A stretch of 33,156 bases of DNA, taken from NCBI GenBank assembly GCA_009699605.1, contig WLNW01000018.1:1-33156 (forward strand). Direction: 5' to 3'. This document shows positions 4,891-9,730 of the stretch, piece by piece. Position 1 is the first letter of the stretch. Each line of letters begins with the position of its first letter. This DNA is from Actinomycetota bacterium (GTDB taxonomy: Bacteria > Actinomycetota > Acidimicrobiia > Acidimicrobiales > WLNW01). The translations under genes were made by a program, and so were the position numbers. The notes under the pieces were generated by a model. That model was not told where the DNA came from. It saw nothing but the letters and a program-made list of their open reading frames with translations, and made no database searches.

Positions 4891-5958
4891 TCAAAGGTGC
4901 GTCGACACGAACCGCCAGGCCTCGGTGGTGGTGTCGAACCAGGTGTTGCTCACCCAGTCGTGGCCACCGCCGGTGACCTTGAAGTGCACGACATCGGCTC
5001 GACAACCGGTGCCGCGCACCGCGGTGACGGCGGGTGACGAAGCGGCGATGGGCACCGACTCGCTGTTGGTGCAGCCGTTGACCCCCCGCCATATGTCGAG
5101 CATTTCACGTACCGGCGCGACCTGGCCGCGCGACTTGCCGCCGCTGTTCGCGACCTGTCCGCCCTCGTAGGGGACGACGGTGTCGGCGGTGCCGAACACC
5201 ACCATTATCGGCAGCGGCCGGCTGGGCTTGCACCGCTGGGTCATGTCACGCGGGCCCGCGCCCGAGACGAGAACCACCGAGGCGAGCTGGTCGGTCATGT
5301 CGCATGCAGCCCGCGAGGCCATGAGCGCACCGTTCGAGAACCCGGCGATCGCGATGCGGGTCGGGTCGGCGCCCGCCTCGGCGACCGAGCGCGAGATCAG
5401 CTCGCGAAGAAACGCAACGTCGTCGACGGGGCTGCCGACCAGCGGCTCCATGCCCGGACGGCCGTCGTTCCAACTACCACCGAATGCATCGGGGTACGCC
5501 ACGATGTAGCCGGCCGGTGCGGCGAGCTTGTCGAAACCGAGCCGCTGCATCGCGGGGCCTTTGCCTCCCACGCCGTGGAGCACGATGAGCAGCGGCAATC
5601 GCTGCTGCTCCGTCGTGTTGGGCGGGACCACCAGCATCCACCGACGATCGACGCCGCCGACCAGCGTGGTCACGGTCCGCTCCCCGGCCGGCCGCATGGT
5701 CGGCGCCGCCACGGCGGTCGTGGGGACCGGGGCGTTCGCGGCCACGACGAGCGTGACCGCCCCGGCGCCCGGAACGCCGGACATCTCGGGCGCAAGCCAC
5801 GAAGCCGTGGGGTCGACGTCGGAAAGTACCTGATCGGAGCGCTCGAGGTGCCCTCCCGCTACATCGGTGGGCGGTGTCGCGGCCGACGCCTGGGCGCAGG
5901 CCGCGAGCAGCAGGGCGGCGGCGGCTCCTGCCCACCAGTGATGTGTCGGATGTCGCAC
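4891..5958 (-). CDS. LpqC/PHB-depolymerase-like secreted esterase lipoprotein
   Basis: A 355-residue predicted lipoprotein with an alpha/beta-hydrolase domain of the polyhydroxybutyrate depolymerase/LpqC/feruloyl esterase group. From the GTG at 5958 the protein starts MRHPTHHWWAGAAAALLLAAC, with the lipobox Cys at 21. About 90 low-complexity Ala/Pro/Thr residues follow, then the hydrolase: LPLLIVLHGVGG (oxyanion region), GFSNGALMA (nucleophile Ser), GTADTVVPYEGG (catalytic Asp) and GGGHDW (catalytic His), a complete triad. Substrates in this family are polyesters or esters of aromatic acids; which one applies here is unknown. A longer in-frame start at 5997 is rejected because it would disrupt the signal peptide and because TACGGT lies at 5972-5967. 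Confidence 0.82.
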   Translation of the reverse strand: MRHPTHHWWAGAAAALLLAACAQASAATPPTDVAGGHLERSDQVLSDVDPTASWLAPEMSGVPGAGAVTLVVAANAPVPTTAVAAPTMRPAGERTVTTLVGGVDRRWMLVVPPNTTEQQRLPLLIVLHGVGGKGPAMQRLGFDKLAAPAGYIVAYPDAFGGSWNDGRPGMEPLVGSPVDDVAFLRELISRSVAEAGADPTRIAIAGFSNGALMASRAACDMTDQLASVVLVSGAGPRDMTQRCKPSRPLPIMVVFGTADTVVPYEGGQVANSGGKSRGQVAPVREMLDIWRGVNGCTNSESVPIAASSPAVTAVRGTGCRADVVHFKVTGGGHDWVSNTWFDTTTEAWRFVSTHL

Positions 5959-5966
5959 GGGCACGA

Positions 5967-5972
5967 ACCGTA
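5967..5972 (-). promoter_or_regulatory. Leaderless-type -10 hexamer (TACGGT)
   Basis: TACGGT on the minus strand ends 8 nt before the GTG at 5958. It fixes the short start that exposes the lipoprotein signal of the esterase. Confidence 0.5.
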
Positions 5973-6073
5973 GATGACCACGAACTGACACGCACATACA
6001 TGAGGCAAAAGGCCCTCAGATTCTGCGACATCGATCACTTGGTTTTCGACCTCTTCGTGCCGATCACTAGGCC

Positions 6074-8536
6074 ATGAAGACCACCCCGACGATTCGTTGC
6101 GGCCTTGCGGCGAACCCGAGCCCGTTGTCGGGTGCGGCACGAGATCCGTTCCTCGACGCCATACGCACCATCGCGCTCCTGCGGGTCATGCTCTGGCACA
6201 CGTTCGGCGATCCGGTGCTCACCTACGTGATCGCTGCGGTGCCCACGATGTTCTTCGTCGCCGGGTCGCTGCTCGCGAAGTCGCTCGACCGCCGGCCGTG
6301 GCCCCGCGTGCTCGCCGACCGGGCGCGGCGGATCCTCCTACCCCTTTGGGCGTTCGCGGCGGTCGCGTTCGTCGCGATGCGGGTGGCATGGCTGCTCGAT
6401 CCGTCGCCGCGCACCGCAGTGCCGTGGAGAAGCATCATCTTTTGGATCGTGCCGCTCGGGGATCCACAGGGTTCGGCATGGGAGGGCGGTTGGATGTCCC
6501 AGCCGCTCTGGTACATACGCGCCACATTCTGGCTGTTCCTGCTGAGCCCGTTGCTCCGTAGCGCGCTCCGGCGCTTCGGCCTCGTCGTGTTCGTCCCACC
6601 GGTCATGGCGGTGTTCGCATTGGACGTGCTGACGCGCAACCCTGCCGTGACCATCCACGCGGCACCAGAGTTGCTCTGGCAGATCGGCGATCTTGCGCTT
6701 TACAGCATCTTCCTCATGGCGGGCTTCGCGCACCGAGACGGCCGCTTCGCGCATCTCCGCCCCAGCGGTTGGTTCGGCGGCGCCGCGCTGGCGGGCATCG
6801 CGTCCACGGCGTGGATCCTGACCCAGCCGGTTCCGTTGCACGTGGTGAACAACTCGCATCCGGCCCACCTCTTCGTCGGCACCGCGTGGCTGTGCTTGTT
6901 CCTCGCGTGTCGGGCGCCGATCACTGCGGTGGCGATGACCTCGGCCGGTCGAGCCATCGTCGGCTGGATCTCGTTGCGCACGATGACGATCTACCTGTGG
7001 CACTCGACGGCCGTCATCCTCACCTATCAGGTGCTCGCGTCCGGCGACGACCGGCCCCCGGGGGTCTACGCCGCCGCGATGATCGCCGGCATGGTGAGCA
7101 TCACGATGGTCTTCGTCGTCGCGTTCGGGTGGGTCGAAGACCTCGCCGCGCGACGACGTTTACTCGTCTGCCCGTTGCTCGTCGCGTCGGGTGACTCGCC
7201 GGGTGATCGTGCGCCGTTCGCCGCCCATCGCCGATCGGTGTACCGATTCGTCGGCGTGCCCTCGCTCGCCGGTGTGCTGTTGTTGGGCGGATGCGCGTTC
7301 ATGACGCAGCCGATGAGCGGCGAAGCGGCCGCGGCCGCCGACGGCGCAGTCGGCGGCGCAGTCGACGGCGGAGTCGTCGCATCCAGGGTCGCGAAGAAGC
7401 CACCCGTCCCCTCACAAGCGCCGCCGCGCCCCGAGTTCGAACGTGCCCCGAGCACATCCGCGCCCGCGTCCACGACGAGCGAGCGACGCGCCGCAGTGGT
7501 CGCACCGGCCGCCACGATCGCGCCCGCCGCCCCGCTCGCCCCGGAGGCCGATGATGCGCTCGCCACTGCGATCCAAAGGACTGTCGACGAATGGCGGGCC
7601 CGCTGGAACGTGCCCGGGATCGCTGTCGGAGTCGTCCAGCCGGGCAGTTTGTCGTGGCGGGGCGCGAGCGGCGCCGATCCCGTCACCGGCGCCGCCGTGG
7701 ATGTCGATGATCGCTTCGACATCACGAGCATCACCAAGACGTTCACAGGAACGTTGGTCTTCCAGCTCGCGGCAGAAGGCCGCATCGACCTCGATGCGCC
7801 ACTCCCCCGACTCGTGCGGGTGCCCGACTTCCCGTACGCCGCGGGTATCACCGTCCGACAGCTCCTGACCCACCGAACCGGACTCGTGCCGTATCGAGAC
7901 ACGCGCGCCTACGCCGCCGCGCCGGATGCCATCGATACGCCGGATAAAGCACTGGCCGCCGCGCTGCTCGAGCCCTTGCAGTTCGCGCCGGGCACCAAGT
8001 CCGCCTATTCGAGCACCAACTTCTTGGTGTTGGGCTTCCTCGTCGAAGAGGTCACCGGCCTCGGCTACGACGCACTGCTGGAACAGCAGCTCTTCGAACC
8101 GGTCGACCTTCGGAGCACCACGCACAGCCCGCCGTCGGCATTGGCACCCAACTTCGCCACGAGCGGAATCGTCACCGACACTGCGGACCTGCTCCGCTGG
8201 GGCATCGCGCTCTACCGCGACCACACGGTGATCGATGTCGTCGGACTCGCCGCCATGCACCAGATCGACACGTCGACGGGGCTCGGCCCTGCGGTCTATG
8301 GCTACTGCCCGTGCACCATCGACGACTCAGGCCGGGAGCACTGGCAGTGGATCGGCCACACCGGCGGCACCACGCAGCTCGCGTACAGCGACACCGACGA
8401 CATCGCGATCGCGCTGAACGTCACCGACTCGCTTTGGCTCGAAAATCGAGGCCGGGCGGTCGCTGAACTGCTGACGCTCCTGCGCGCCGCGGTACTCGGG
8501 GCCACACCACGGGCGGCGATCCCCAGCTTCTCCTAG
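6074..8536 (+). CDS. Membrane acyltransferase-3 fused to beta-lactamase-family serine hydrolase
   Basis: An 820-residue two-part protein. Residues 25-355 are an acyltransferase-3 (OafA/WecH-like) domain: the R-X10-H motif (Arg31 to His42) in the first helix, the FFVAGSLLAKS segment and RRILLPLW, with about ten membrane helices. A further helix (GVPSLAGVLLLGGC, ending at Cys407) leads to an Ala/Pro-rich linker and then, from about residue 495, a class C beta-lactamase/D-aminopeptidase/EstB-like domain with SITK (Ser552, Lys555), Tyr645 in the YSSTN loop and His762-Thr-Gly in place of KTG. The extra helix would put the hydrolase outside the cell. AT3 proteins usually carry SGNH hydrolases, so this pairing is unusual. 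Acylation plus deacylation or transpeptidation of a surface glycan is inference. No frameshift is seen. A lipobox-like LLLGGC could allow an internal start (GTG at 7240) for a separate lipoprotein. Confidence 0.85.
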   Translation: MKTTPTIRCGLAANPSPLSGAARDPFLDAIRTIALLRVMLWHTFGDPVLTYVIAAVPTMFFVAGSLLAKSLDRRPWPRVLADRARRILLPLWAFAAVAFVAMRVAWLLDPSPRTAVPWRSIIFWIVPLGDPQGSAWEGGWMSQPLWYIRATFWLFLLSPLLRSALRRFGLVVFVPPVMAVFALDVLTRNPAVTIHAAPELLWQIGDLALYSIFLMAGFAHRDGRFAHLRPSGWFGGAALAGIASTAWILTQPVPLHVVNNSHPAHLFVGTAWLCLFLACRAPITAVAMTSAGRAIVGWISLRTMTIYLWHSTAVILTYQVLASGDDRPPGVYAAAMIAGMVSITMVFVVAFGWVEDLAARRRLLVCPLLVASGDSPGDRAPFAAHRRSVYRFVGVPSLAGVLLLGGCAFMTQPMSGEAAAAADGAVGGAVDGGVVASRVAKKPPVPSQAPPRPEFERAPSTSAPASTTSERRAAVVAPAATIAPAAPLAPEADDALATAIQRTVDEWRARWNVPGIAVGVVQPGSLSWRGASGADPVTGAAVDVDDRFDITSITKTFTGTLVFQLAAEGRIDLDAPLPRLVRVPDFPYAAGITVRQLLTHRTGLVPYRDTRAYAAAPDAIDTPDKALAAALLEPLQFAPGTKSAYSSTNFLVLGFLVEEVTGLGYDALLEQQLFEPVDLRSTTHSPPSALAPNFATSGIVTDTADLLRWGIALYRDHTVIDVVGLAAMHQIDTSTGLGPAVYGYCPCTIDDSGREHWQWIGHTGGTTQLAYSDTDDIAIALNVTDSLWLENRGRAVAELLTLLRAAVLGATPRAAIPSFS

Positions 8537-8545: not shown

Positions 8546-9730
8546 ATGGACCTGTCGACGTTCGACCCGCTCGACCCGCTCGCCGAATCGCCCGAACGCC
8601 GCCAGCTTCGCGACACCGTGCGGACGCTCGTACGAGACTTCTCGCCCCACGCCCACACGCAGGCGCTCGATGATGCCGAGCAGTTCGATGACGCGCTCTA
8701 CGAACAGCTCGCGGCGATGGGCGTCCTCGCCATCGACGCACCCGAAGACGTAGGCGGGATCGGTGACCTCCGCGACCAGCTCGTCGTGATCGAGGAGCTC
8801 GCCGCAGGCCCCACGTCGATGGCGGCCTTCCTCATCGTGCAGTTCATGATCATCCAGGTACTGCGCGGGTATGCGTCGACCCCCCAGCAGCACGTCGTGC
8901 TCGAGCAGCTGGTGCGCGGCGAGACCAAGGTCTCGTTCTCGATGTCAGAGCCCGACGGTGGCACCGACGTGGCGCGGGCCATGAAGACGCGCGCCACCAA
9001 GATCGACTCCGGCTGGCGCATCAACGGCACGAAGCTGTGGACCTCCGGAGCGACGCGCGCCGAGTGGCTCATCGTCATCGCCCGCACACGCGAGCCCGAG
9101 CGCTCATCGATCGATGGGGTCACGATGTTCCTGGTGCCCACTGCGGCCACTGGAGTCACGGTCCGCGAGATCGACACGTTGGGCATCCACGGCATGTCCA
9201 CGTGCGAGGTGTCGTTCGACGACGTACACGTCGGTCACGACGCGCTCATCGGGGTCGAGCACGCCGGCTTTCGGCAGGCGTTCGCGACGCTCAACCGCGA
9301 AGGTCTCAACGCCGCAGCGGCATGCATCGGGGTGGGCCGCGGCGCGCTCGAGTACGCGGCCAACTACGCCAACCAGCGCGAAGTGTTCGGCAAGGTCATC
9401 GGCGCGTTCCAGGTGCCCCAGCACTGGCTCGCCGATGGTGCGGTCCGTCTCGAGGCTGCACGAAGCCTGGCCTCGCGCGCCGCGGCCATAGAGGTGGCGG
9501 GCGGAAATGCCGAACTGCTCGCGCAGATGGCCAAGCTCGTCGCTTCCGAGGCCGCGCAGCACATCACCTTGTCGGGCATGCAACTGATGGGCGGCTTCGG
9601 CTTCAGCCGCGAGCTCCCGATGCAACGATGGTTCCGCGACGTGCGCCTGTGGAGCTTCGCGCCGCTCAACAACGAGATGGTGCGCAACCGCATCGGCGAG
9701 CGACTGCTCGGCCTGCCCCGCTCCTACTGA
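8546..9730 (+). CDS. Acyl-CoA dehydrogenase
   Basis: A 394-residue FAD-dependent dehydrogenase that introduces a 2,3 double bond into acyl-CoA and passes electrons to ETF. Full length for the family. An N-terminal helical domain (residues 15-110) with the usual MGVLAIDAPEDVGG turn is followed by the middle beta domain with FSMSEPDGGTD (FAD/substrate contact) and the WRINGTKLWTSGA segment, and then the C-terminal helical domain with REVFGKVIGAFQVPQHWLAD and QLMGGFGFSRELPMQRWFRDVRLW, which contacts FAD across the dimer. The start codon is fixed by TAGTGT 6 nt upstream. Chain-length or ring specificity cannot be told. It sits away from the catabolic block at 17-33 kb but could serve it. Confidence 0.93.
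   Translation: MDLSTFDPLDPLAESPERRQLRDTVRTLVRDFSPHAHTQALDDAEQFDDALYEQLAAMGVLAIDAPEDVGGIGDLRDQLVVIEELAAGPTSMAAFLIVQFMIIQVLRGYASTPQQHVVLEQLVRGETKVSFSMSEPDGGTDVARAMKTRATKIDSGWRINGTKLWTSGATRAEWLIVIARTREPERSSIDGVTMFLVPTAATGVTVREIDTLGIHGMSTCEVSFDDVHVGHDALIGVEHAGFRQAFATLNREGLNAAAACIGVGRGALEYAANYANQREVFGKVIGAFQVPQHWLADGAVRLEAARSLASRAAAIEVAGGNAELLAQMAKLVASEAAQHITLSGMQLMGGFGFSRELPMQRWFRDVRLWSFAPLNNEMVRNRIGERLLGLPRSY

Follow-up and report, generated by a model that had tools for sequence, protein, structure and literature searches.

The window, a stretch of 33,156 nucleotides from an Actinomycetota bacterium (contig WLNW01000018.1), is high in GC and contains on its forward strand a single open frame that runs from an ATG at 6074 to a stop at 8536 and encodes 820 amino acids. 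Pfam recognised two domains in the product: Acyl_transf_3 at residues 25-347 (E 2.5e-24), with 86.4 bits for PF01757 against a cut-off of 31, which places it in the AT3/TmAT profile family, and Beta-lactamase (S12, PF00144) at residues 502-788 (E 5.4e-46, 157.7 bits). An earlier note, made from the letters alone, had described an unbroken 820-codon frame joining an AT3 domain to an SxxK hydrolase with SITK and HTG motifs; frame and domains are as it described, and the motifs lie at S552-K555 and 762-764. The features of the locus are collected in Table 1. Pfam also identified a DUF3097 neighbour, and a promoter and terminator scan found nothing.

Table 1. Features of the fusion gene, its product and its neighbours (window positions unless a locus is named; residues are those of the fusion protein).
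Feature	Position	Strand	Basis or conservation
AT3-S12 fusion gene	6074..8536	+	820 aa; ORF, Pfam
Acyl_transf_3 (AT3/TmAT) domain, residues 25-347, 10 predicted TM helices	6146..7114	+	Pfam, AF2, Foldseek
R31-x10-H42 motif (R/K-x10-H) in TM1	6164..6199	+	R/K and H in all fused copies
R83xxR86 motif, cytoplasmic TM2-TM3 side	6320..6331	+	invariant in fused copies
Extracytoplasmic TM3-TM4 loop and start of TM4; fusion-typical D130, G139, W140, R149	6443..6520	+	20 fused vs 19 AT3-only
Extracytoplasmic TM7-TM8 loop, VxNxS	6842..6856	+	N259 and S261 invariant in fused, variable in AT3-only
E355 after TM10	7136..7138	+	invariant in fused; kept in AT3-only relatives too
Eleventh TM helix, residues 391-410 (predicted)	7244..7303	+	hydropathy, charge pattern, AF2 helix 395-410
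Pro/Ala/Ser-rich tether, variable length	7304..7552	+	low pLDDT, family comparison
S12 domain (beta-lactamase/R61 DD-peptidase fold), residues 494-812	7553..8509	+	Pfam, Foldseek
SxxK motif S552-I-T-K555	7727..7738	+	Ser and Lys invariant in complete fused copies
Tyr motif Y645-S-S647	8006..8014	+	Tyr alone invariant
C745-P-C747	8306..8314	+	in every complete fused copy
Third motif H762-T-G764	8357..8365	+	not kept across fused family
Exported alpha/beta hydrolase, lipoprotein-like (LAAC), divergent from fusion; possible partner	4891..5997	-	Pfam, signal read
Acyl-CoA dehydrogenase, begins just past fusion stop	8546..9730	+	ORF, Pfam
Anchored-protein genes adjoining fusion	L047 6603-7553; L097 9184-11361	+	30-35% identical mutually

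Profile searches were run on overlapping sets of 397 genomes (order), 396 (phylum) and 296 (class, with a 5-row profile), and loci were then fetched. Both domains were found in a single frame at 21 loci from 20 genomes, under ten family labels of the order; one of these loci (G137) ends with its contig inside the S12 domain. Two carriers (G006 and G139) are single-contig genomes, and the source genome has a second copy, of 764 aa, on another contig. Outside the 21 loci, two copies cut by contig ends are consistent with the fusion: G903, and G770 in a genome that carries the label of the same class, not of the same order. Third-position GC is high throughout the frame (0.74-0.98), the junction at 7124-7573 included; block 7124-7273 is the only one in which GC1 and GC3 are level (0.76 and 0.74). 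The earlier note had allowed for two adjacent genes joined by a frameshift or assembly error near 7200-7300. Among the homologous loci, two (G028 and G339) do have disrupted frames, but we rejected this explanation as practically inconceivable, since independent assemblies, among them two single-contig genomes, carry the same fusion undisrupted, and GC3 does not drop. Its recurrence in about twenty related bacteria shows that the AT3-S12 fusion is a genuine design. The disrupted copies (loci L048 and L135) reflect either gene decay or sequencing errors; in the first of them (L048 6872-8817, from G028) the first AT3 helices are also missing.

Outside the class, no fusion was found in the sampled genomes at the profile threshold used. 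A plasmid tblastn gave no record with one place covering 80% of the query, and a contig scan returned partial AT3 matches only, in Citricoccus, Pseudonocardia and Microbacterium. The phylum does hold AT3-only relatives, in genomes of 6-10 Mb: their AT3 domain is about 30-33% identical to that of the window and keeps the catalytic motifs, their frames stop soon after it in the copies examined, and no S12 match was present in the fetched flanks. A phylum-wide listing of the AT3 family held too many frames of AT3-SGNH length for further S12 fusions to stand out. In a tree of the AT3 domain (20 fused and 19 AT3-only sequences), the fused copies fall on one side of a single branch (support 83/89), so that the labels change only once, a value as low as which was reached in 0 of 500 label shuffles. 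Directly upstream of one fusion (G013), we observed a standalone S12 gene without CPC (L049 9541-10683, minus strand), perhaps a duplicated S12 part.

The AT3 part modelled alone (39 sequences) reached a pLDDT of 94.9. With this predicted structure as the Foldseek query, the four best PDB matches were all human HGSNAT, a member of the TmAT superfamily (probability 1.00, TM about 0.5), at weak E-values of 0.06-0.11; as modelled, the domain has the ten-helix TmAT fold. Searched by sequence with the AT3 profile, the PDB gave no match at E 0.1. The residues of R/K-x10-H and RxxR and E355 have as counterparts R14, H25, R69, R72 and E325 in the AT3-SGNH protein OafA, where their mutation abolishes or strongly reduces activity (PMC7448272). 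Other residues set fused copies apart from AT3-only ones: W41, G139, F213, V257, N259 and S261 are typical of the fusion, and W124, D130, W140 and R149 partly so. Several belong to the loops TM3-4 and TM7-8, which are predicted to face outward, on the side of the S12 domain. Shared ancestry could account for part of this pattern, but the residues are retained even though overall identity is 26-42%. TM1-2 of the fusion lack the GG-F/Y-xGV-D motif of AT3-SGNH enzymes and read VIAAVPTMFFVAG there in the window.

The topology is predicted to be that of SGNH fusions, reached through an eleventh helix, as had been proposed: hydropathy, charge pattern and AlphaFold agree on it. Full-length AlphaFold (20 sequences) returned a TmAT-like domain and an S12 domain, both confident, separated by helix 11 and by a tether that is mostly disordered (about 411-493), and the order of helices together with the positive charges in the cytoplasmic loops would place S12 outside, after helix 11. 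The tether contains a conserved PPVPSQAPP (7400-7426), and the spacing between E355 and W507 varies from 80 to 180 residues across the fused family, which does not suggest rigid docking. Around it the tether is variable. The short motif, PPxPSxxP (or PLSG), also stands in the linkers of loci L047 and L097, twice in G105 and three times in G006. In the window copy, helix 11 ends in a lipobox-like LGGC (7283-7294, residues 404-407) and resembles a lipoprotein signal sequence; the Cys is missing at this position in most other family members. Helix 11 may once have been the signal peptide of an S12 protein that was secreted.

For the S12 part, the best Foldseek match was the Streptomyces R61 DD-peptidase (3pte, E 6.9e-16), which is also among the top two by profile; further structural matches were the FmtA-like 4gdn and the macrolactin acyltransferase 6kjp (E 1.2e-11), and 6kjp/6kjh were matched by sequence too. 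A penicillin-binding-protein-like fold thus stands where an SGNH domain is usual, in agreement with the earlier reading. The protein belongs to S12 by the PF00144 profile, Ser-x-x-Lys and the catalytic Tyr. The YxN and (K/H)TG motifs of DD-peptidases and class C beta-lactamases are not conserved in the family, although the window copy has HTG, and the score with the NCBIfam class C beta-lactamase model, 58.3 bits, lies below its cut-off of 415. The second motif appears in homologues as YSS, YSN, YSR or YAN. The YSS of the window, which had been taken as a possible sign of altered chemistry, is therefore ordinary variation around an invariant Tyr, and we discarded that idea. The third motif reads HTG, HNG, YYG, YAG, YFG or less recognisable forms. 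At the level of sequence, the informative change is the loss of (K/H)TG in most homologues while Ser, Lys and Tyr stay invariant, together with the invariant CPC. Only one of the 29 standalone S12 frames listed from related genomes has CPC (two of the 29 rows being the same gene), and it is the best-scoring one (G062); a standalone S12 protein in G137 also has it.

In its general plan the fusion follows the AT3-SGNH enzymes (OafA/OafB, OatA), with an N-terminal AT3 domain that has R/K-x10-H, RxxR and the Glu after TM10, followed by helix 11 and an extracytoplasmic serine enzyme. It differs from them in that its C-terminal domain has the S12/beta-lactamase fold rather than SGNH (Pfam, Foldseek), TM1-2 lack their motif, and a disordered tether of variable length replaces the structured SGNH extension; the absence of an SGNH domain puts it outside that class. 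From the AT3-only acyltransferases of the same phylum, with which it shares the AT3 catalytic motifs, it is set apart by the S12 domain. The AT3 literature, as covered by a partial search, names fusions with SGNH, racemase (VanT) and NRF domains, and a combination of AT3 and beta-lactamase was not found in it. The AT3-S12 fusion is, apparently, an undescribed two-domain AT3 envelope enzyme with a new partner domain, which would decorate or edit surface molecules.

The S12 half also has known counterparts. DltE and FmtA, D-Ala esterases of teichoic acids that belong to S12, are extracytoplasmic as well and keep SxxK and Tyr, and the YxS of DltE recurs in the fusion; at the level of motifs the likeness to DltE extends to the third one, of which DltE has the Gly only and many fusion homologues little more than that, while the window copy has HTG. 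These esterases, however, are not fused to an acyl carrier, and DltE sits beside a separate Dlt machinery. DltE (SIQK, YxS, Gly only), once annotated as a DD-carboxypeptidase, is a lipoteichoic-acid D-Ala esterase inactive on the peptidoglycan stem (PMC10241514). That the third motif is not conserved in the fused family, as in DltE, favours acyl-ester chemistry over that of a DD-peptidase or beta-lactamase. The macrolactin acyltransferase BmmI (6kjp) and family VIII carboxylesterases such as EH7 share with the fusion the beta-lactamase fold and a Ser-Lys-Tyr chemistry capable of acyl transfer, but they are not membrane-fused, and the acceptors known for them are small molecules. Acyltransferase activity can occur in family VIII esterases of S12 whose motifs are altered (PMC9795927). 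Compared with R61, its closest structural match, the fused family has no conserved YxN and HTG, and CPC is added.

The gene surroundings vary between carriers. The divergent hydrolase has a 47% identical counterpart beside the G028 fusion copy. The downstream acyl-CoA dehydrogenase gene is close enough for co-transcription with the fusion to be possible; near the second fusion copy we found just a 31% identical counterpart, and such genes are probably common in these genomes, so we rejected a conserved operon of the two. In G006 and G105, the fusion abuts, in operon-like arrangement, a gene whose product crosses the membrane once and bears one or two related extracellular domains, with a PF06439 match in G105. 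The hydrolase and the anchored proteins, which are not universal neighbours, give a hint of surface chemistry that involves esters and glycans.

From these data we favour a two-domain membrane enzyme in which AT3 delivers an acyl group and Ser552 of S12 transfers it to a hydroxyl group on a surface glycan, a model to which we give a probability of roughly 0.45. The TmAT-fold AT3 domain would take the acyl group from cytoplasmic acyl-CoA, the presumed donor, and present it at the outer face of the membrane, where helix 11 and the flexible tether would hold S12. S12, a serine enzyme with Ser552, Lys555 and Tyr645 and of the R61/DltE/family-VIII type, would most likely accept the acyl group on Ser552, by a putative direct hand-over between domains, and pass it on to the glycan, an acceptor and a direction of transfer that we infer; it would do the job of SGNH in OafA/OatA. 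The observed part of this model comprises the fusion with its conservation and grouping, the motifs that are intact and the predicted folds and topology. It is supported by the single-frame fusion in 20 genomes, with the fused AT3 domains forming one group in the tree, by the retention of the OafA-essential residues checked (R/K-x10-H, RxxR and the Glu after TM10), by an invariant Ser-Lys-Tyr while the DD-peptidase motifs drift, and by the existence of S12-fold acyltransferases. Residues of the outer face that are conserved in the fused copies but not in AT3-only relatives, among them N259, S261 and positions in the TM3-4 loop, argue for it as well, in analogy with OafA, where SGNH-fusion-specific essential residues occupy outer-face positions (PMC7448272). 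The operon-like neighbour in G006 and G105, with its extracellular domains and PF06439, gives a hint of the glycan. Against the model, the TM1-TM2 region without GG-F/Y-xGV-D resembles AT3-only enzymes, E355 is not specific to the fusion, and the variable tether does not suggest rigid docking; moreover, the AT3-only relatives presumably act alone, so S12 need not be a transferase. A little more tentatively, we propose a distinct class in which the penicillin-binding-protein fold replaces SGNH as the final acyl-transfer enzyme and the SxxK serine is loaded directly from the AT3 channel.

A possible though less probable explanation is that AT3 alone acylates a surface polymer and S12 acts on it as an editing esterase, taking acyl groups off or redistributing them, like DltE or FmtA. 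DltE has a similar motif pattern, and its loss still lowers alanylation (PMC10241514); an FmtA-like structure is among the matches of S12, and the divergent neighbour of the fusion is another exported ester hydrolase. AT3-only relatives, too, have no S12 in their fetched flanks. On the other hand, two opposed activities in the same polypeptide would serve no purpose unless they were controlled, and the clustering of fusion-specific residues on the AT3 outer face fits a hand-over better.

It is improbable that S12 acts on peptidoglycan stems as a DD-carboxypeptidase or transpeptidase-like enzyme while AT3 acylates a wall glycan, the fusion merely co-localising both: R61 is the best PDB match and the window copy has HTG, but motifs two and three drift across the family, and in DltE such drift accompanies no peptidoglycan activity (PMC10241514). 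Least of all these would we expect S12 to be a non-catalytic sensor or binder gating the AT3 channel, for instance of beta-lactams or wall fragments, as the eroded third motif and the flexible tether might suggest, given that no complete fused copy departs from Ser, Lys and Tyr. Acyl transfer by S12 is favoured over editing, the other of the two options in the earlier note, and over a peptidase.

How the acyl group is handed over to an acceptor outside, and why some AT3 enzymes need a fused hydrolase-fold domain, are open in the AT3 field (PMC9558356). A natural exchange of SGNH for an unrelated serine-enzyme fold allows one to ask if any serine acyl-enzyme would do the job. The fusion calls for caution, too: an annotation as beta-lactamase or penicillin-binding may stand for an acyl-ester enzyme of the envelope. 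On another contig of the source genome (C245, locus L002), we observed an AT3 frame of 729 codons whose C-terminal region is of the GDS type (LFLGDSIAFD). It apparently encodes a classic AT3-SGNH protein, so both designs seem to coexist in this genome.
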